Below, in pieces: positions 51,408 to 62,762 of a stretch of DNA of 64,000 nt (positions within the stretch are counted from its first letter, which is position 1; each line of letters starts with the position of its first letter). The DNA lies in NCBI GenBank assembly GCA_019752045.1, contig JAIEMP010000011.1:62001-126000 (forward strand), written 5' to 3'. The notes under the pieces were generated by a model, which searched no databases, had not been told where the DNA came from, and saw nothing but the letters and a program-made list of their open reading frames with translations. The stretch comes from Chitinophagaceae bacterium. Its GTDB lineage: Bacteria; Bacteroidota; Bacteroidia; Chitinophagales; Chitinophagaceae. The translations under genes and the position numbers were made by a program.

Positions 51408-51498
51408 CGTAATTCGGTTCTTCTAAAATCCTTTACTGACAGGGGTTTTCGAAATAATGGGCACATTTATCTGTCGTAAAATACATGAAATATAGGTT

Positions 51499-51590
51499 TG
51501 CAGGCCCCTTCTAACTGAAATAATTTTATCCTGCAGGTTCATTGCTTCAATCCGGTGAATGAAATGAAGTGATACAACCTGCATTTTTTT
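51499..51590 (+). terminator. Terminator/anti-terminator-like leader upstream of leuA
   Basis: tgcaggtt (51532-51539) pairs with aacctgca (51576-51583) followed by TTTTTTT; tgcagg (51499-51504) can instead pair with cctgca (51530-51535). Confidence 0.6.
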
Positions 51591-51608
51591 ACCTTTTTAA
51601 AGTTTCAT

Positions 51609-52769
51609 ATGGCACACAAACAAGTGTTCATTTTTGATACCACACTCAGAGACGGTGAGCAGGTTCCGGGTTGTAAATTAAACACAACCGAAAAAGTTGA
51701 GCTTGCATTAAAATTAGAAGCGTTGGGTGTTGATATTATTGAAGCGGGGTTTCCCATTTCCAGTCCGGGCGACTTTGAAAGTGTAAATCAAATTTCAAAA
51801 GTAATTAAGAACGCTACGGTATGCGGATTAACCCGTGCAGTACAAAAAGATATTGAAGTAGCGGCTGAAGCGTTGAAGCCTGCTGTTCGTCCACGTATCC
51901 ATACCGGTATCGGAGCGTCTGACAATCACATCAAATACAAATTCAATTCTACCAGAGAAGAAATACTTAAACGTGCCGTTAATGCTGTAAAGCTTGCCCG
52001 TAATTATGTACCCGACGTTGAGTTTTATGCCGAAGATGCAGGTCGTGCAGACCTGCAGTTTTTGGCACAATTGACAGAAGCAGTGATTGCTGCCGGTGCA
52101 ACGGTAGTAAACATCCCCGACACAACCGGTTTTTGTTTGCCGCATCAGTATGCAGAAAAGATGGCTTACTTAATGAACAATGTCAGCAATATCGATCAAG
52201 CAATTCTTTCCTGCCATTGTCATAACGATCTTGGTTTAGCAACAGCTAATTCTATTGCAGGTGCCATTGCAGGGGCCAGACAAATTGAATGTACCATCAA
52301 TGGTATTGGTGAGCGTGCAGGTAATACTTCGTTGGAAGAAGTGGTGATGACGATTCGTAAACACCCCGAACTCGAGTTGTTTACAAATGTAGACCCCAAA
52401 CAACTGTTGCCGATGAGTCGTTTGGTAAGCGAAACCATGCGGATGGTGGTGCAGCCAAACAAAGCTGTTGTAGGCGATAATGCATTCTCTCATTCATCAG
52501 GTATTCATCAGGATGGATTTTTGAAAGAAGCAACCACCTACGAAATTATTGCACCGGAAGAAGTGGGTGCCGATACATCGAAGATTGTACTAACGGCAAG
52601 GAGTGGTCGCAGTGCATTAGCGTATCGTTTCAAAAATCTCGGTTACAGTTTCGATCGTAACCAGGTAGATGAATTGTATGAGCGTTTTCTTACACTTGCT
52701 GATTCAAAGAAAGAAGTGGAAGACGCCGATTTAAAAACATTAGCAGAACAAATTGCAGTAACAGCTTAA
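51609..52769 (+). CDS. leuA: 2-isopropylmalate synthase, catalytic domain only
   Basis: [94 protein letters not shown]. Confidence 0.93.
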
Positions 52770-52955: not shown

Positions 52956-54356
52956 GTGGGAAAATCATTATTTGAAAAAATCTGGGAACGTCACGTAGTG
53001 AAAACGATTGAAGGCGGTCCATCTGTTTTATACATCGACACACATTTTATTCACGAAGTAACCAGCCCGCAGGCATTTAACGGGTTGAATAAAAGAGGTA
53101 TCAACGTTTTTCGTCCGAAACAAACTGTTGCAACGGCCGATCATAATGTACCAACACTCAATCAACACTTACCTATTAAAGAAGAGTTGAGTCGTAAGCA
53201 AGTGGAAGCGTTGATTAAGAATTGTGATGAGCATGGAGTGGAGTTATATGGGTTGGGACATCCGTACCAAGGCATTGTGCATGTAATTGGTCCGGAGTTA
53301 GGTATTACACAGCCGGGCGCAACGATTGTTTGTGGTGATAGTCATACATCAACGCATGGTGCGTTTGGTGCCATTGCATTTGGTATTGGTACCAGCGAAG
53401 TAGAAATGGTATTGAGTACGCAATGTTTGCTGCAGAGTAAACCCAAACTGATGCGCATTAATGTGGAAGGTGAATTAAATAAAGGTGTGGTTTCAAAAGA
53501 TATTGTGTTATACATCCTTTCTAAAATTTCTGCCAGTGGTGCTACGGGTTATGCTGTTGAGTTTGCCGGTTCTGCCATCCGTTCTTTGAGCATGGAAGCA
53601 CGGATGACCATTTGTAACATGAGTATTGAAATGGGCGGACGTTGTGGCTTGATTGCTCCTGATGAAACAACCTTCAACTATATAAAAGGAAGAACGTTTG
53701 CTCCGTCGGGTGAAGAATGGGATAAAGCATTGGCGCATTGGAAAACATTTTTCAGCGATGCGGATGCAATATTCGATAAAGAAATAAATATCAATGCAGC
53801 TGCTATTGAACCGATGATCACGTACGGAACAAATCCGGGTATGGGCATCAGTGTAAATGAAACAATACCAACTGCTGCAACGATAAATGAAAATGATCAA
53901 TCGGGTTTAAGCAAATCACTTGCTTATATGGGCTTGCAGGAAGGCACAGCAATTAAAGGACAAAAAGTGGACTATGTTTTCATCGGCAGTTGCACCAACA
54001 GCCGCATCGAAGATCTGCGCATGGTTGCATCATTTGTAAAAGGAAAGAAGAAAGCCGATGATGTGGAAGTATGGATCGTTCCGGGAAGTAAACAAGTTGA
54101 AGCTCAAGCGAAAGCTGAAGGCATTGATAAAGTATTTGAAGAAGCAGGATTTGTGTTACGTCAGCCGGGTTGCAGTGCTTGTCTTGGTATGAATGAAGAT
54201 AAAATTCCTGCAGGTAAATATTGCATCTCTACTTCCAACAGAAATTTTGAAGGAAGACAAGGTGCGGGTGCAAGAACATTGCTGGCGAGTCCGTTAACGG
54301 CAGCTGTTGCAGCGATTACGGGGAAGGTGGGGGATGTGAGAGAGTGGCCCCTCTAA
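52956..54356 (+). CDS. leuC: 3-isopropylmalate dehydratase large subunit
   Basis: GTG start; [75 protein letters not shown]. Confidence 0.95.
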
Positions 54357-54525
54357 ATCTCCCCGAAGGGGAGACTTCGCTACGCACATGCTTGCTTTTT
54401 TAAAGTGATCGATAAAATTTAAAATACTGTTTGATAAAATGATTTTTAAAAATAAAAAAAGATTTCCCGAAAAACTGGGGCCTTGCAGTGATGGTCCCGT
54501 TTCGACGGGATCGGAAGGGGGCTTT
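54346..54525 (+). repeat. Two-hairpin repeat, leuC-leuD junction
   Basis: ggcccctctaaatctccccgaaggggaga...gatggtcccgtttcgacgggatcggaagggggc. Confidence 0.7.
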
Positions 54526-54530
54526 AAATT

Positions 54531-55145
54531 ATGAGTAAAGCATTTACAACAATAACAAGCCGGTTTGTTCCACTCAACATGGAGAATGTTGATACGGATC
54601 AGATCATCCCTGCACGATTTTTAAAAGCAACAACAAGAGATGGGTTTGGTAAAAATCTGTTTCGTGACTGGCGTTATGAAAATGATGATGAAACAAAACC
54701 CAAAGCAGATTTTGTATTGAATCAACCGCAATACAGTGGTGAAATTTTAGTTGCTGCGAAAAACTTCGGTTGTGGCTCTTCACGTGAACATGCTGCATGG
54801 TCTATCCAGGATTATGGTTTCAATGTAGTAGTGAGCAGTTTCTTTGCAGATATATTCAAGAACAATGCATTGAATAACGGAGTGTTGCCAGTAACAGTTT
54901 CGGATTTTTTTTTAGAAAAAATATTTGCTGCATCTCGTGTAAATCCAAATGCTGAATTAGAAATCAACCTACAGGAGCAAACGATTAAATTATTAGGGTC
55001 TGAAGCCCCTCCTTCGGAGGGGTTTGGGGAGGTATTCGAGATCAATGCATATAAGAAAACATGCATGATCAACGGGTATGATGATATTGATTATTTGCTG
55101 AGTATAAAAGAAGATATCATCAATTATGAAAACTCGGCCCCCTAA
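54531..55145 (+). CDS. leuD: 3-isopropylmalate dehydratase small subunit
   Basis: [82 protein letters not shown]. Confidence 0.95.
55003..55034 (+). repeat. Short GC-hairpin repeat inside leuD, in frame
   Basis: gcccctccttcggaggggtttggggagg, encoding APPSEGFGE. Confidence 0.65.
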
Positions 55146-55290
55146 ATCCCCCAAAGGGGGACTTGGTAACATGTTGCATAAATAACGAATAACCTAAATA
55201 GAAAAAATAAAGAAGATGGATAATACCAATGATGATAGAAAAGCGAATGCCGACAGTTCCTCCCCTTCGGGGAGGTTAGGAGGGGCCTAT
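55136..55290 (+). repeat. Two-hairpin repeat, leuD-leuB junction
   Basis: ggccccctaaatcccccaaaggggga on the left; cctccccttcggggaggttaggaggggcc on the right, inside the leuB start. Confidence 0.75.
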
Positions 55291-56397
55291 AAGATTGCCA
55301 TATTAAACGGTGACGGGATTGGTCCTGAAGTAACGGCCCAGTCCATTAAAGTATTAAATGCCATTGCACATCAATACGGACATACATTTCATTATAAAGA
55401 AGCATTGATCGGAGCAGATGCAATTGATAAAACAGGAGAAGCATTGCCATCTGCAACAGTTGATATTTGTTTAGACAGTGATGCAGTTTTGTTTGGTGCT
55501 GTTGGTCACCCTAAGTATGATAATGATCCTTCTGCAAAGGTGCGTCCGGAGCAAGGGATTCTCGGCATCCGCAAAGCATTGCAATTGTTTGCAAATATTC
55601 GTCCTGTTACTACTTATCCAACCTTGCAACATTTATCACCCTTAAAATCTTCGCAACTGGAAGGTGTTGACTGTGTCATCTTCCGTGAGTTGACCGGTGG
55701 TATTTATTTTGGTAAGAAATCAACCAGTGAAGATGGAAACAGTGCAAGCGATGAATGTTACTACACACGTCCGGAAATTGAACGTGTTACACATCTTGCG
55801 TTCAGGTATGCACAAAACAGAAAGAAGAAAGTAACGCTCATTGATAAGGCCAATGTTTTGGAAACTTCCAGACTGTGGCGAAAAGTAGTACAGGAAATTG
55901 CTGCACAGTACAGCGACATTGCCATCGATTATATGTTTGTTGACAATGCAGCCATGCAGATGATCTTAAACCCCAAGCAGTTTGATGTGGTGTTAACGGA
56001 AAATATGTTTGGTGATATCATCAGCGATGAAGCAAGTGTATTAAGTGGATCATTGGGAATGCTTCCTTCTGCTTCAGTAGGAAACGGTACAGCGTTGTTT
56101 GAACCAATTCACGGTTCGTATCCGCAAGCTGCGGGGAAAGATATTGCCAATCCAACAGGTTCTATTTTGTCAACAGCAATGATGCTGGATCATTTTGGTT
56201 TACAGGCAGAAGCGCAGGTGATTCGTGAAGCAGTAGACTGGACACTCCAAAACAACTTTGTTACAAAAGATATTGATCCGGTGAATTTTTATTTCACAAG
56301 CACCATTGGTGATTTGATTGCAGATTATGTGAGTGGAAAAATTCCGGGATCTGTTCATAAAGGGAATATTGAGTTAAGGAAGTCGACGATTATATAG
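55216..56397 (+). CDS. leuB: 3-isopropylmalate dehydrogenase
   Basis: YKIAILNGDGIGPEVTAQSIKVLNAI; ENMFGDIISDEASVLSGSLGMLPSASVG; FEPIHGSYPQAAGKDIANPTGSILS. N-terminus is repeat-derived. Confidence 0.94.
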   Translation: MDNTNDDRKANADSSSPSGRLGGAYKIAILNGDGIGPEVTAQSIKVLNAIAHQYGHTFHYKEALIGADAIDKTGEALPSATVDICLDSDAVLFGAVGHPKYDNDPSAKVRPEQGILGIRKALQLFANIRPVTTYPTLQHLSPLKSSQLEGVDCVIFRELTGGIYFGKKSTSEDGNSASDECYYTRPEIERVTHLAFRYAQNRKKKVTLIDKANVLETSRLWRKVVQEIAAQYSDIAIDYMFVDNAAMQMILNPKQFDVVLTENMFGDIISDEASVLSGSLGMLPSASVGNGTALFEPIHGSYPQAAGKDIANPTGSILSTAMMLDHFGLQAEAQVIREAVDWTLQNNFVTKDIDPVNFYFTSTIGDLIADYVSGKIPGSVHKGNIELRKSTII

Positions 56398-56590
56398 CAG
56401 CCCCTCCAAACCTCCCCCGAGGGGAGGCTTGCTGAGCACAAGCCAAGCTTAACTAAGAGGTTGAATAAAATGCCAGTGGTTGGTGTGTGATGATTAAAGA
56501 TATAACGATGATGTGGTAGATAATTAGATTGGTAAAAAAGTGATGCGCCGCTCTTTCCCTTCCGGGGAAAGAGAAGGAGAAAGGGGCATA
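56396..56590 (+). repeat. Full-length two-hairpin repeat, leuB-ilv leader junction
   Basis: gcccctccaaacctcccccgaggggaggcttgct...gtgatgattaaagatataacgatgatgtgg...gcgccgctctttcccttccggggaaagagaaggagaaaggggc. Confidence 0.8.
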
Positions 56591-56594
56591 GTTC

Positions 56595-56625
56595 TTTGTT
56601 TATTTGATTAAAGGCGGTATATTCG
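56595..56625 (+). promoter_or_regulatory. Candidate Bacteroidota promoter for the ilv leader
   Basis: TTTG (56595-56598), exactly 19 nt, TATATTCG (56618-56625); close to TTTG-N19-TAnnTTTG. Confidence 0.65.
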
Positions 56626-56642
56626 TTGTACAACAAACAACG

Positions 56643-56744
56643 ATGTTGAAGAACAGTAACAATAATGTCATCTCTGCAATCGCAATAAATATTGTGGCAG
56701 TCATTATTATTCCTGTAATCAACGGAGGTGCAAGTTGTATGTAA
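56643..56744 (+). CDS. Putative ilv operon leader peptide, Ile/Val-rich
   Basis: Manual translation: MLKNSNNNVISAIAINIVAVIIIPVINGGASCM*; 12 of 33 residues are Ile or Val; followed by an intrinsic terminator and ilvE. Too short for the supplied ORF track. Confidence 0.75.
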   Translation: MLKNSNNNVISAIAINIVAVIIIPVINGGASCM

Positions 56745-56768
56745 CAAATAAAACGAATTAACATAACG

Positions 56769-56797
56769 ACCCGCCTCCAAAAGAGGCGGGTTTTTTT
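56769..56797 (+). terminator. Intrinsic terminator (attenuator) upstream of ilvE
   Basis: acccgcctc-caaaa-gaggcgggt perfect 9-bp stem followed by a run of T. Confidence 0.88.
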
Positions 56798-56798
56798 A

Positions 56799-56828
56799 TC
56801 CCCTCCCTGGAGGGGTAGGGGTGGGTAA
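56799..56828 (+). repeat. Short GC-hairpin repeat immediately upstream of ilvE
   Basis: tcccctccctggaggggtaggggtgggt; same as 4557-4572 and like 46605-46636. Confidence 0.65.
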
Positions 56829-56845
56829 AAGGTAAATCACAACAC

Positions 56846-57781
56846 ATGACAAACTATTATAACAACAACACAATACTTTTTCTCAACGGAGAATTTGTAA
56901 AAGCAGCAGAAGCAAAGATGGATTTCTACAGTCAGTCTTTGCATTACGGGTACAGTGTGTTCGAAGGAATTCGATCATACAAAACAACAAATGGAGAAAC
57001 AAAAATTTTCAAAGCTGTTGAACATTATGAGCGGTTGAAAAATTCTGCTGCAGCTATGAATATGCCCTATCACTGGTCAACAGAAGAATTGATTCATGCA
57101 ACATATGAAGTATTAACAAAAAATAATTTACAGGATGCATACATACGGCCCGTTGTATACGCACCGGCAAACATGAAGTTTGATGTAAATGAGCAATCAT
57201 TCATTGTTATTGAAGCATGGGCTATGCAACCGTTTTTAGGAGATCAGTTGCTCCGCATCATGACCAGTTCATTTGAACGGCCCAACCCGAAAGGGTTTAA
57301 GATACATGCAAAGGCAGCAGGGCATTATGTGAATTCCATTTTAGCAAGTCAGGAAGCAAAAGCCGCTGGTTATGATGAAGCACTGTTAACTGATATGAAT
57401 GGGTTTGCTGCAGAAGGTCCCGGTGCTAATTTATTTTATGAGAAAGATGATAAGCTTTTTACACCCGCATTGGGAAATATTTTACCCGGCATTACAAGAG
57501 CAACTGTATTAGAGTTATGTAAAGAGTTGAGTATAGAAGTGGAAGAAACATTTTTCACAATTGAAGAATTAAAAACAGCTGACGCTGCATTCTTTTGCGG
57601 CACTGCAGCAGAGGTGATTGGATTTGAAAGCCTGGATGCGTACAAATTCCCGATGAAATGGAATGAAAGTGTAAGTAGAAAAATTCAGGTGGCGTATAAA
57701 GAATTGGTGGTGGCCCCTCCAAACCTCCCCCGGGGGGAGGTTTACTTCGCACAGCCCTTGCTTAGCGGAGTGGTTAAGTAA
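56846..57781 (+). CDS. ilvE: Branched-chain amino acid aminotransferase
   Basis: MDFYSQSLHYGYSVFEGIRSYKTTNGETKIFKAVEHYERL; GYDEALLTDMNGFAAEGPGANLFYEKDDKLFTPALGNILPGITRATVLEL. Confidence 0.94.
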   Translation: MTNYYNNNTILFLNGEFVKAAEAKMDFYSQSLHYGYSVFEGIRSYKTTNGETKIFKAVEHYERLKNSAAAMNMPYHWSTEELIHATYEVLTKNNLQDAYIRPVVYAPANMKFDVNEQSFIVIEAWAMQPFLGDQLLRIMTSSFERPNPKGFKIHAKAAGHYVNSILASQEAKAAGYDEALLTDMNGFAAEGPGANLFYEKDDKLFTPALGNILPGITRATVLELCKELSIEVEETFFTIEELKTADAAFFCGTAAEVIGFESLDAYKFPMKWNESVSRKIQVAYKELVVAPPNLPRGEVYFAQPLLSGVVK

Positions 57782-57955
57782 TTTGAGAAAGTTTGAAATG
57801 TGATGAGTAAAGAACATAAGTTGAAATGCTTAATTACAAATATTGATGAAGAAGTTGAGGCTGGGTCTCCCCTCATGGGAGGGGATTAAGGGGTGGGTTG
57901 ACGAATAGAATAGCCAAACGCAGAAGTGTGCGACGCAACAAAAGTTAAATAGAAT
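57712..57955 (+). repeat. Two-hairpin plus gcgacgcaaca composite repeat, ilvE-ilvD junction
   Basis: ggcccctccaaacctcccccggggggaggtttact...gtgatgagtaaagaacataagttgaaatg...ctcccctcatgggaggggattaaggggtgggttgacgaatagaat...gtgtgcgacgcaacaa. Confidence 0.8.
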
Positions 57956-57980
57956 AATAACAGACGACAACAAAATAAAA

Positions 57981-59693
57981 ATGGACGAACTCAATAAATA
58001 TTCAAAGACATTAACACAGGATGAAACACAACCTGCAGCGCAGGCGATGTTGTATGGTATTGGATTAACAGAAGAAGATCTAAAGAAACCGCAGATCGGT
58101 GTGTGCAGCATGGGATACGATGGAAACACCTGCAACATGCATTTGAATGAGTTGGCAAAAGATGTAAAACAGGGTGTATGGAAAAATGAAATGGTGGGAT
58201 TGATTTTTAACACCATTGGTATCAGCGACGGAATCAGTAATGGTACGGATGGTATGCGTTATTCATTAGTGAGTCGTGATATTATTGCTGATAGTATTGA
58301 AGCAGTGTGCGGCGGATTTTATTATGATGGGCTGATTGCATTACCCGGCTGCGATAAAAATATGCCCGGTGCAATTATGGCCATGGGTCGTTTAAACCGT
58401 CCTTCAATCATGGTATATGGTGGTACAATTGCTGCAGGACATTACAAAGGCGAAGAGTTGAATATTATTTCGGCATTTGAAGCATTGGGTAAAAAAATTG
58501 CAGGCACCATCACGCCTGAAGATTTTAAAGAAGTGGTGAAACATAGTTGTCCTGGTGCAGGTGCATGTGGTGGAATGTACACAGCAAATACAATGGCAAG
58601 TGCTATCGAAGCATTGGGTATGAGTTTGCCATTTTCATCGAGCAATCCTGCGTTGAGTGAGGATAAGAAAAAAGAATGCCTCGATGCAGGCAAAGCAATT
58701 AAAGTGTTGCTGGAAAAAGATATCAAGCCAAAAGATATCATGACAAAGAAAGCATTTGAAAATGCAATTACTACAATCATGATCTTCGGCGGAAGCACCA
58801 ATGCTGTATTGCATCTCATTGCAATGGCAAAGAGTGTGGATGTAGAATTAACACAGGACGATTTTCAACGCATCAGCGATACAACACCTGTGCTCGCCGA
58901 TTTTAAACCAAGTGGCAAATATCTCATGCAGGAGTTACATGCACATGGTGGTGTGCCTGCAGTGATGAAATATTTATTGCAAAAAGGATTGCTGCATGGC
59001 GATTGTTTAACTGTTACAGGCAAAACAGTTGCTGAAAACTTAGAAAATATTGCGCCGGTAAATTTCGATACACAAAAAATTATTTATCCCTTAGAAACTC
59101 CGTTGAAAGCAACCGGTCATTTACAAATATTGTACGGCAATCTTGCAGAAAAAGGAAGTGTTGCAAAAATCAGCGGTAAAGAAGGAGAACGTTTTGTTGG
59201 ACCGGCACGAGTGTTTGATGGTGAAAAAGATTTAGTAGCAGGTATTGCAAACGGAAGAGTGAAAAAAGGAGATGTAGTTGTTATACGTTACGAAGGGCCA
59301 AAGGGTGCACCGGGTATGCCGGAGATGTTGAAACCAACTTCAGCTATAACTGGTGCTGGGTTAGGTAAAGATGTTGCATTGATCACTGATGGACGATTCA
59401 GCGGTGGTTCACATGGATTTGTTGTTGGACATATAACGCCTGAAGCATTCAATGGTGGATTGATTGCATTGGTAGAAGATGATGATATGATTGAACTGGA
59501 TGTTGCTGCAAAAAAAATGACATTGAAAGTGAGTGAAGAAGTAATTGCCGAAAGAAGATTAAGATGGAAACAACCTGCATTAAAAGTAACCAAAGGTGTG
59601 TTGTATAAATATGCCATGTGCGTGCAGGATGCAAGTGAGGGGTGTGTCACGGATGAGCCGGCCTCCCCAAACCCCTCCAGAGGAGGAGCTTAG
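57981..59693 (+). CDS. ilvD: Dihydroxy-acid dehydratase
   Basis: [107 protein letters not shown]. Confidence 0.96.
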
Positions 59694-59862
59694 CAAGGCA
59701 CAGCCCTTGCTTGTTAAGATGACTAATGAAATGCAGATTGGTTGATGGTTGGTGATTAAAGATTTTAAGTTGAAGAGGAAGAAATGAAGTTTATCATATA
59801 GATAGTGTACCGCCTCCTCTCTTTTGGAGAGGAGGAAGGGAGGTGAGGCCAAGTAGGCAAAC
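59660..59862 (+). repeat. Two-hairpin repeat, ilvD-ilvB junction
   Basis: ggcctccccaaacccctccagaggagg...aaggcacagcccttgcttg...gtaccgcctcctctcttttggagaggaggaagggaggtgaggcc. Confidence 0.8.
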
Positions 59863-59884
59863 ATTGATTAATAAATTATTTGTA

Positions 59885-61633
59885 ATGGAAACGCTTGAAG
59901 TAAAAGAAAAAAAAGTAGAAGAAGTAACATCGAAATCCATCAGTGGTTCTGTTGCTGTATTGGATGTTCTTCTCTGCGAAAATGTATACAGCATCTTTGG
60001 TTATCCCGGTGGAGCTATTATGCCCATCTATGATGCATTGTACGATTACAAAGATCGTCTTCAACATATACTTGTTCGTCATGAGCAGGGTGCTATTCAT
60101 GCAGCACAGGGTTTTGCAAGAGCAAGTGGTAAAACAGGTGTTGTGTTTGCAACAAGCGGTCCCGGTGCAACAAATTTAGTAACAGGTTTGGCCGATGCGA
60201 TGATTGATTCAACGCCATTAGTATGTATCACCGGACAAGTGTTTGCACATTTGCTCGGCACCGATGCATTTCAGGAAACAGATGTCATTAATATAACAAC
60301 ACCTGTTACGAAATGGAATTATCAGGTAACTGATGCAACAGAAATTCCTGCGGTATTGGCAAAAGCATTTTATATCGCAGGCAGTGGTCGTCCGGGTCCT
60401 GTATTGATTGATATTACAAAGAATGCACAGCTGCAAATGTTTCAATACGAAGGATACAAAAAGTGCGATCACATCAGAAGTTATCGTCCTAAACCAATTG
60501 TACGTAAAGAATATATTGAAGAAGCTGCAAAATTGATTAATGAAGCAGAAAGACCATTTGTGATTTTCGGACAAGGTGTTATTCTTGGTAAAGCCGAACA
60601 GGAATTTAAACAGTTTATTGAAAAAGGCGGTTTGCCTGCTGCATGGACCATCATGGGCATGAGTGCAATACCAACTGATCATCCCTTAAGTGTTGGTATG
60701 CTGGGTATGCATGGTAATTACGGACCAAATGTATTAACAAATGAGTGTGATGTGTTGATTGCAGTAGGTATGCGTTTCGATGATCGTGTTACCGGGCGAC
60801 TGGATAAATATGCCAAACAGGCAAAGATCATTCATCTGGATATTGATCCTGCTGAAATTGATAAGAATGTAAAAGCAACTGTTGGTGTTTGGGGCGATTG
60901 TAAAGAAACATTGCCCTTGCTCACTTCATTGATTGAAAAGAAAACACATCCGAAATGGTTACAACTTTTTCATGATTACATGAAAAAAGAAACGGAGAAA
61001 TGTATTGAACCGGAAATGAATCCGTCTGGAGATGTGTTGTCAATGGGTGAAGTAATCAACGCATTGAATGAATTAACAAATGGCAACGCCATTATTGTAA
61101 CCGATGTTGGTCAGCATCAAATGGTCGCCTGCCGTTATGCAAAAATGAATTTTTCTAAAAGCAATATCACCAGCGGTGGATTGGGTACCATGGGTTATGC
61201 ATTGCCGGCAGCCATTGGAGCAGCATATGGTGACCCGTCTCGTACAACCGTTGCAATTATTGGTGATGGTGGTTTTCAAATGACGATACAGGAGTTGGGA
61301 ACCATCATGCAGTTTAAACCAAACGTGAAGATCATGATTTTAAATAATCAGTTTCTCGGAATGGTACGCCAATGGCAGCAGCTGTTTCATGAAAAGCGTT
61401 ATTCGTTTGTTGATATCACCAGTCCTGATTTTGTAGCAGTGGCAAAAGGATATTATATAGACGGGCAACGTGTTAGTGAAAGAGATAAACTAAAAGACGC
61501 TTTGCAAACCATGCTCAATCATGATGGAAGTTATTTATTAGAAGTGATGGTGGGTAAAGAAAATAATGTATTTCCCATGGTGCCGCAGGGAAGAGGTGTG
61601 GCGGAGTGTGTGTTGAGTAAAGAAGAGATATAG
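59885..61633 (+). CDS. ilvB: Acetolactate synthase large subunit
   Basis: ATG at 59885 (METLEVKEKKVEE...) is preferred to ORF-track 59843, which lies in repeat sequence. FGYPGGAIMPIYDALYD, VFATSGPGATNLVTGLADAMIDSTPLVCITGQV, GDGGFQMTIQELGTIMQ. Confidence 0.95.
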   Translation: METLEVKEKKVEEVTSKSISGSVAVLDVLLCENVYSIFGYPGGAIMPIYDALYDYKDRLQHILVRHEQGAIHAAQGFARASGKTGVVFATSGPGATNLVTGLADAMIDSTPLVCITGQVFAHLLGTDAFQETDVINITTPVTKWNYQVTDATEIPAVLAKAFYIAGSGRPGPVLIDITKNAQLQMFQYEGYKKCDHIRSYRPKPIVRKEYIEEAAKLINEAERPFVIFGQGVILGKAEQEFKQFIEKGGLPAAWTIMGMSAIPTDHPLSVGMLGMHGNYGPNVLTNECDVLIAVGMRFDDRVTGRLDKYAKQAKIIHLDIDPAEIDKNVKATVGVWGDCKETLPLLTSLIEKKTHPKWLQLFHDYMKKETEKCIEPEMNPSGDVLSMGEVINALNELTNGNAIIVTDVGQHQMVACRYAKMNFSKSNITSGGLGTMGYALPAAIGAAYGDPSRTTVAIIGDGGFQMTIQELGTIMQFKPNVKIMILNNQFLGMVRQWQQLFHEKRYSFVDITSPDFVAVAKGYYIDGQRVSERDKLKDALQTMLNHDGSYLLEVMVGKENNVFPMVPQGRGVAECVLSKEEI

Positions 61634-61634
61634 A

Positions 61635-61812
61635 ACGGCCCACTCTAACTCCCCCCGAGGGGGAGGATACCAACACACAGCCCTTACTTTTTTGAGTGTT
61701 TGATAAAGTATAAAGAAGTTGAAATTTAAAAGATTGAATCATGAATACGTTACAATTTAATCATACTGCTGCCCAACTCTCCCCCTTGGGGGGAGGCGGA
61801 GGGGGCCGCAAG
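61635..61812 (+). repeat. Two-hairpin repeat, ilvB-ilvN junction
   Basis: ggcccactctaactccccccgagggggagg...cacagcccttac...ctctcccccttggggggaggcggagggggcc; right hairpin lies inside the ilvN start. Confidence 0.8.
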
Positions 61813-62391
61813 GAATTCACAATAACAGTTTACACCGAAAACCAAGTTGGGTTATTAAACCGCATCGCTATAATTTTTTCCAAGCGGAAAATTAATATCG
61901 ACAGTTTAAATACATCGCCCAGCGAAGTGGAAAGTGTACATCGTTTCACCATTGTCATCCATGAAACAGAAGAAGTGGTGCGAAAACTTTGCAGACAAAT
62001 TGAAAAGCAGGTTGAAGTATTAAAGGCCTATTACAATACCAATGATGAAATCATCTGGCAGGAGTTGGCCATGTACAAAGTGCCTACTGATATAATTGCT
62101 GAACAGGTAAAAGTAGAAAGGCTGTTGAGTCAGCACGGAGCCAAAGCTGTAGTGATACGTAAAGATTATACGGTGTTTGAAGTAGCGGGACAAAGAGAAG
62201 AAACAGACAATTTAATTAAAGTATTAGAACCTTACGGTTTAATTGAGTTTGTACGCAGTGCAAGAATTGCCATTATTAAAAGCAGTGATGGCTTTCATAA
62301 TAAATTGAAAGAGTTTGAATACAAAGAGCCGGGTGAAGTGGTGATTGAGAATGAGTATTTGAGTGAGAATGAAAAGGTGTTTAGTATGTAG
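61741..62391 (+). CDS. ilvN: Acetolactate synthase small (regulatory) subunit
   Basis: KEFTITVYTENQVGLLNRIAIIFSKRKINIDSLNTSPSEVESVHRFTIV (ACT domain). The N-terminal ~22 aa are repeat-derived. Confidence 0.93.
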   Translation: MNTLQFNHTAAQLSPLGGGGGGRKEFTITVYTENQVGLLNRIAIIFSKRKINIDSLNTSPSEVESVHRFTIVIHETEEVVRKLCRQIEKQVEVLKAYYNTNDEIIWQELAMYKVPTDIIAEQVKVERLLSQHGAKAVVIRKDYTVFEVAGQREETDNLIKVLEPYGLIEFVRSARIAIIKSSDGFHNKLKEFEYKEPGEVVIENEYLSENEKVFSM

Positions 62392-62762
62392 GTGGCCCCT
62401 CCAAACCTCCCCCGAGGGGAGGCTTTCTAAGGCACAGCCCACGCTATTCAAAGGTGAAGAATAATGTTACGCTATTTAAAAATTTAATAGTCCCGTATGG
62501 ACAAAAGCTTTGTATAAAAAATGATAGTGTTCATGAGCGTCACGTAGAGACGCAACCTGGAAGGAAGACTAGAAGTGGATTGGCAATAATTAGAGTGGTT
62601 GAAGTGTGTTGAGCAAAGAACAAAACTTGATGTGGTAGTTAAATAGAAAGTATGAGGTATACGGTGCCGTCCTTCTCCTTGGGAGAAGGAAAAGAGGATG
62701 AGGTTGATGAATAGAATTCAAAACGTACAGGAGTGCGACGCAACAGTAACTCAATAGATGCT
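62392..62762 (+). repeat. Composite two-hairpin plus gcgacgcaaca repeat, ilvN-ilvC junction
   Basis: ggcccctccaaacctcccccgaggggaggctttctaaggcacagccc...gttgagcaaagaacaaaacttgatgtgg...gtgccgtccttctccttgggagaagg...gatgaatagaattcaaaacgtacaggagtgcgacgcaaca. Confidence 0.8.

Follow-up and report, generated by a model that had tools for sequence, protein, structure and literature searches.

An isoleucine/valine leader peptide and RNA switch that very probably control ilvEDBNC in Chitinophagaceae

The leu-ilv region and its leader

The window, the whole 64,000-nucleotide stretch of DNA analysed here, carries a leu-ilv gene cluster in which the ilvEDBNC operon follows leuB on the forward strand. The first structural gene is ilvE (56846-57781), followed by ilvD (57981-59693), whose presence in relatives goes with that of the leader described below, ilvB (59843-61633, start codon uncertain), ilvN (61741-62391) and finally ilvC, which runs off the window. 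The names ilvB and ilvN come from sequence, ilvN being an ACT-type small subunit. Of the 150 family genomes, 149 contain an ilvE homologue at E<=0.001; weaker matches among these probably represent paralogous aminotransferases. The closest named record is a Chitinophagaceae metagenome-assembled genome (MAG) with a 96% identical IlvE and the same leader with two substitutions, in agreement with the earlier placement of the host in Bacteroidota.

A REP-like, GC-rich palindromic repeat, GCCCCTCCAAACCTCCCCCGAGGGGAGGC, lies between most genes of the cluster (54347-62431), with copies at 54347, 56400, 57713, 59661, 61638 and 62395. The sequence-only reading, made before any comparison with relatives, had set the regulatory element between two repeat copies. 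GC-rich REP-like copies do lie upstream (56400-56436 and 56489-56589), but the downstream stretch CCCCTCC..GGAGGGG (56799-56826), repeat-like by eye, was not returned as a copy in the repeat search. Upstream of leuA (51470-51612), a run of seven T follows a long-loop inverted repeat, TGCAGGTT...AACCTGCA. This stretch contains no leader ORF for Leu, and its full-length match is in a congener only (73% identity).

Between leuB and ilvE, the sequence contains a TTTG -33 element (56595-56598, within AGTTCTTTG) and, 19 nt downstream, a -7 box, TATATTCG (56618-56625), that follows the sigma-A type consensus TAnnTTTG (PMC9723704). Every base of the TTTG-N19-TATATTCG promoter proposed earlier matches at 56595-56625. 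Similar signals precede the leaders of relatives. Of 83 family leaders, 71 have the motif AG[TC]TCTTT 30-75 nt 5' of their ATG, and 68 have T[AG]NNTT[TC]G at most 42 nt from it, the latter compared with 4.3 expected after shuffling. According to PMC9723704, the flavobacterial TAnnTTTG box occupies positions -12 to -5, so transcription would start near 56630 and leave a predicted 5' UTR of only 13 nt (56630-56642), the candidate region 1 of the switch.

The leader ORF begins 17 nt after TATATTCG and spans 56643-56744, with 33 codons that encode MLKNSNNNVISAIAINIVAVIIIPVINGGASCM and a TAA stop at 56742-56744. As had been read earlier, 12 of its residues are Ile or Val and include an III run. The ATT ATT ATT codons of this III (Ile 21-23, 56703-56711) are the last of the Ile/Val run and the putative control codons. 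Among 530 ATG ORFs of 20-40 amino acids on both strands of the window, this one alone has at least 12 Ile and Val residues, and shuffled sequence yields such a count in 1 of 1326 ORFs. The leader is thus no chance ORF.

Conservation among relatives

A covariance model (R1) was built on 36 leaders with a terminator, taken from the ilvE loci of relatives. Searched with R1 at E<=1.5e-7, 84 of 150 family genomes contain the element; one further, weaker match lacks a leader ORF. The device is present in most relatives that make Ile and Val, and occurs in 83 of the 105 genomes with ilvD versus 1 of the 45 without it (Fisher p 3e-20, with relatedness ignored). The first homologue of a window gene downstream of the element is ilvE in 49 of the 84 loci and ilvD in 28. 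Conservation of the leader ORF in relatives, on which the sequence-only reading had staked its interpretation, was found: 83 Ile/Val-rich leaders were extracted, and the element almost always stands immediately upstream of ilvE or ilvD. They are 20-38 codons long, with a mean of 32.7 residues, 12.7 of them Ile or Val and 15.2 Ile, Val or Leu.

In the 22 remaining ilvD-bearing family genomes there is no strong R1 match with a leader ORF, and at least one of them (G101, L050) has a divergent candidate. It had seemed that many relatives carry a divergent ilvD in place of the leader. This was rejected, as the minus-strand loci, once reverse-complemented, carry the leader too.

Alternative hairpins and the predicted switch

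The leader ORF is followed by an intrinsic terminator (56768-56797), composed of a hairpin (56768-56792, -18.5 kcal/mol) and a T tract, which lies 48 nt upstream of the ilvE start codon. The GC-rich stem described earlier is present, with 10 pairs, nine Watson-Crick and one G-U. In the alignment of 36 sequences, 92.9% of terminator stem cells are paired, two-sided changes occur in six of nine pairs, and none of 500 shuffles scores as high for covariation. The competing structure forms between GGAGGTG inside the leader ORF (region 2, 56724-56730) and CGCCTCC (region 3, 56772-56778), which is also part of the 5' arm of the terminator, so that 2:3 and the terminator pairing 3:4 are mutually exclusive. 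Both arms of this antiterminator had been proposed from the sequence, and their computed duplex has an energy of -13.8 kcal/mol.

Covariation supports the switch between antiterminator and terminator. In a fixed alignment, the antiterminator GGAGGTGG x CCGCCTCC is 89% paired and varies little, with two-sided changes in two of eight pairs. A second approach paired windows of each leader with its own terminator arm and with the arms of other leaders, anchoring the windows at the end of the Ile/Val run, independently of terminator pairing. Around region 2, the 83 family leaders pair better with their own arm (-15.1 vs -14.3 kcal/mol, 0 of 1000 permutations, kinship ignored). There is no difference elsewhere in the leader, and a smaller gain appears again where the windows enter the terminator. 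A scan of the phylum added 22 leaders outside the core set, upstream of genes of several pathways, and among these the advantage of own over foreign pairing is greater (-12.8 vs -8.3 kcal/mol, 0 of 5000, kinship ignored). All these permutation tests ignore relatedness, and the control windows alone account for it.

Individual leaders point to what is conserved in region 2. One (L031) keeps GGAGGTGG but translates it in another frame (..REVV), and in a second (L023) the stop codon of the leader precedes region 2. In a third (L040) both antiterminator arms have changed together, to CAGAGGAGC x GCTTCTCTG, and a fourth (L033) has GGCGGG opposite CCCGCC. These cases argue that region 2 is kept as RNA and not as peptide where frame or peptide has changed. 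In region 3, TCC is conserved though unpaired in many terminators. A synonymous-codon test of region 2, with codon weights taken from the leaders themselves, carries little information in most leaders.

These observations bear on the idea that the ORF makes a functional small membrane peptide and that the hairpin does no more than terminate the leu operon or this small gene. An Ile/Val run does resemble a transmembrane segment, and leu genes lie upstream. A generic membrane helix, however, would not have Ile and Val so far in excess of Leu (12.7 vs 2.5 residues), nor would it explain a C-terminus kept as RNA rather than peptide (L031, L023), a region 2 that co-varies with the terminator, or the equivalent His-, Thr- and Phe-rich leaders before hisG, thrA and pheA. 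This makes the membrane peptide highly improbable. A riboswitch or a protein- or tRNA-binding (T-box-like) amino acid sensor, to which the ORF would be incidental, shares with our element the terminator/antiterminator switch common to such systems. No Rfam family matches at its gathering threshold, however; the resemblances below threshold are to leader-peptide families such as Thr_leader, and conservation outside the switch tracks the ORF with its Ile/Val codons. Such a sensor is likewise highly improbable.

Ribosome-mediated transcription attenuation of ilvEDBNC very probably accounts for the locus, and the interpretation proposed earlier on classical lines is supported by the comparative evidence of leader conservation together with antiterminator and terminator covariation. 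The spacing fits as well. The last Ile/Val/Leu run ends 11-13 nt 5' of region 2 in 61 of 83 leaders (12 nt in 35, 11 nt in 18 and 13 nt in 8), and the stop codon mostly ends 15-22 nt past the start of region 2. In computed folds of the nascent RNA, in which a mask of 30 nt stands for the ribosome, 95% of leaders form 2:3 if the mask sits at the last codons of the run, and 2% if it sits at the stop codon. The position of the control codons is thus such that stalling there would expose region 2, which would be covered once the ribosome reaches the stop codon.

The predicted sequence of events begins with RNA polymerase starting near 56630 and transcribing the short 5' UTR and leader ORF. With ample charged tRNA-Ile and tRNA-Val, the ribosome would reach the TAA and cover region 2, region 3 would pair with region 4, and transcription would end upstream of ilvE. 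Under Ile or Val shortage, the ribosome would stall in the Ile/Val run, whose last codon lies about 12 nt 5' of region 2. Left just outside the ribosome, region 2 would pair with region 3 as soon as the latter emerges, pre-empting the terminator and allowing ilvEDBNC to be transcribed. Shortage of either amino acid would in this way very probably induce the operon through the leader and its RNA switch. Equilibrium folding at full length favours the terminator in nearly all conditions, even with a stalled ribosome. The switch must therefore be kinetic, decided while region 4 is still being made. Classical attenuators are likewise kinetic.

A third pairing, absent from the sequence-only reading, involves the 5' UTR. 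The 16 nt immediately 5' of the leader start codon form a more stable duplex with their own region 2 than with foreign ones (-8.5 vs -6.9 kcal/mol in 83 leaders, 0 of 1000 permutations, kinship ignored), with an anchor independent of the 1:2 pairing. The gain, 1.5-1.7 kcal/mol, is confined to region 2 windows; other windows of these leaders show about none or a difference of opposite sign. Statistically, then, the 5' UTR abutting the leader start codon co-varies with region 2 and takes the place of region 1 in a classical 1:2 hairpin. In an untranslated leader, this pairing would occupy region 2, let the terminator form and so block read-through; it may also, or instead, pause polymerase until a ribosome loads. 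Stalling could be the right mechanism and 1:2 non-functional, with region 2 free whenever no ribosome covers it. In the window itself the pairing is weak and AU-rich (TACAAC x GTTGTA, GTTGA x TCAAC), and relatedness could inflate the permutation test. The confinement of the gain to region 2 windows speaks against a non-functional 1:2, which we consider fairly unlikely, though a serious contender.

Known attenuators and related leaders

Enterobacterial ilvGMEDA and ilvBN (ivbL) are controlled through an Ile/Val-rich leader ORF with a mutually exclusive antiterminator and terminator. The Chitinophagaceae element shares with them the leader, the exclusive hairpins and the pathway, a likeness in general features. 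It differs in belonging to another phylum with no recognised sequence relation, in its sigma-A type TAnnTTTG promoter, and in a 5' UTR that is very short and lacks a Shine-Dalgarno sequence. Furthermore, its putative region 1 lies in the 5' UTR, whereas that of trpL lies in the coding region. The Rfam families Thr_leader (RF00506), Phe_leader (RF01859) and Trp_leader (RF00513) have the same architecture. Their scores over the same stretch are 23.4, 20.6 and 15.4 bits against gathering thresholds of 55, 55 and 41, and the element is not a member of any of the three.

The mechanism is thus the textbook one, absent from Rfam in this form and barely described in Bacteroidota; the 5' UTR region 1 is possibly one new design detail. 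Lopatovskaya et al. 2010, cited in PMC4833913, may already include cases from Bacteroidetes. For Flavobacterium psychrophilum, of the same phylum, the main text of PMC9723704 gives one predictive sentence on 'strong clues' to leader-peptide attenuation, without an alignment or structure of an Ile/Val leader, and PMC7366714 makes a general remark for B. thetaiotaomicron. Leader peptides controlling ilv operons are described in other phyla, in the uORF of Corynebacterium ilvBNC (PMC10272879) and in the ilv leader of Staphylococcus (PMC5794164). According to PMC2965389 (2010), until its Firmicutes case leader peptides had been demonstrated in Proteobacteria and Actinobacteria only.

The earlier reading also missed that similar leaders precede his, thr and phe genes across the phylum. 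Most of the best R1 matches in the rest of the phylum are again leaders, of the Ile/Val type before ilvE, ilvD, ilvN-like genes and ilvA, of the His type before hisG and of the Thr type before thrA, with one Phe leader before pheA. The pathways are named by reading the sequences of downstream proteins and, for the window's own genome, by Pfam searches. That genome encodes HIHHHH before hisG, TTTIITTT before thrA and FFYFSFFYY before pheA. Two weak R1 matches in it (G000:C8:33799 and G000:C1:228737) were rejected as leaders, since they look like ordinary terminators after genes.

It is quite conceivable, though we lean slightly the other way, that these leaders represent a Bacteroidota-wide form of attenuation (ilv, his, thr, phe) with a design of its own. 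Region 1 would lie in a 13-16 nt 5' UTR that lacks a Shine-Dalgarno sequence and directly adjoins the start codon of the leader, and region 2 would be opened by initiation itself. The GGAGG of region 2, which in most other bacteria would work as a Shine-Dalgarno element, would be largely ignored by Bacteroidota ribosomes. Ribosomes of F. johnsoniae are described as depending little on the anti-Shine-Dalgarno sequence (PMC8710568), and GGAGG inside a leader may, speculatively, be tolerated for this reason.

Amino-acid control in Bacteroidota is little studied, and the attenuator represents a specific, testable, family-wide candidate regulator of branched-chain amino acid synthesis, with the same leader design preceding several pathways across the phylum. 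It offers a clean system for studying how transcription and translation are coupled in bacteria with no reliance on Shine-Dalgarno sequences, and a candidate new Rfam family usable for annotating short ORFs that are currently missed.

Several of the other leaders have features of their own. In the window's genome, the His leader ORF MITSTHIHHHHTFLNR (L138, G000:C5) lies about 0.2 kb before hisG, and the Thr/Ile leader ORF MKQLVVNITSPSLASAANTTTIITTTIR (L145, G000:C5:86300-88200) lies 175 nt before the thrA ATG. The Phe/Tyr leader ORF MTNNKGYRFFYFSFFYYKRKPGNLLLNAN (L139, G000:C7, upstream of pheA on the minus strand) is followed by a CCCGGCC hairpin, with which GCCGGGA in the leader can pair. 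In another genome (L144, G005:C1:2565000-2568200) an Ile/Val leader precedes an ACT-domain, ilvN-like gene, and the ilvE of the same genome has no leader. Finally, upstream of ilvE in an uncultured Flavobacteriales MAG (L152), two Ile/Val leader ORFs with terminators, MRNINNIPSIIKVVVISYGH and MQHLGNIIIVVVIIICTPSG, stand in tandem.
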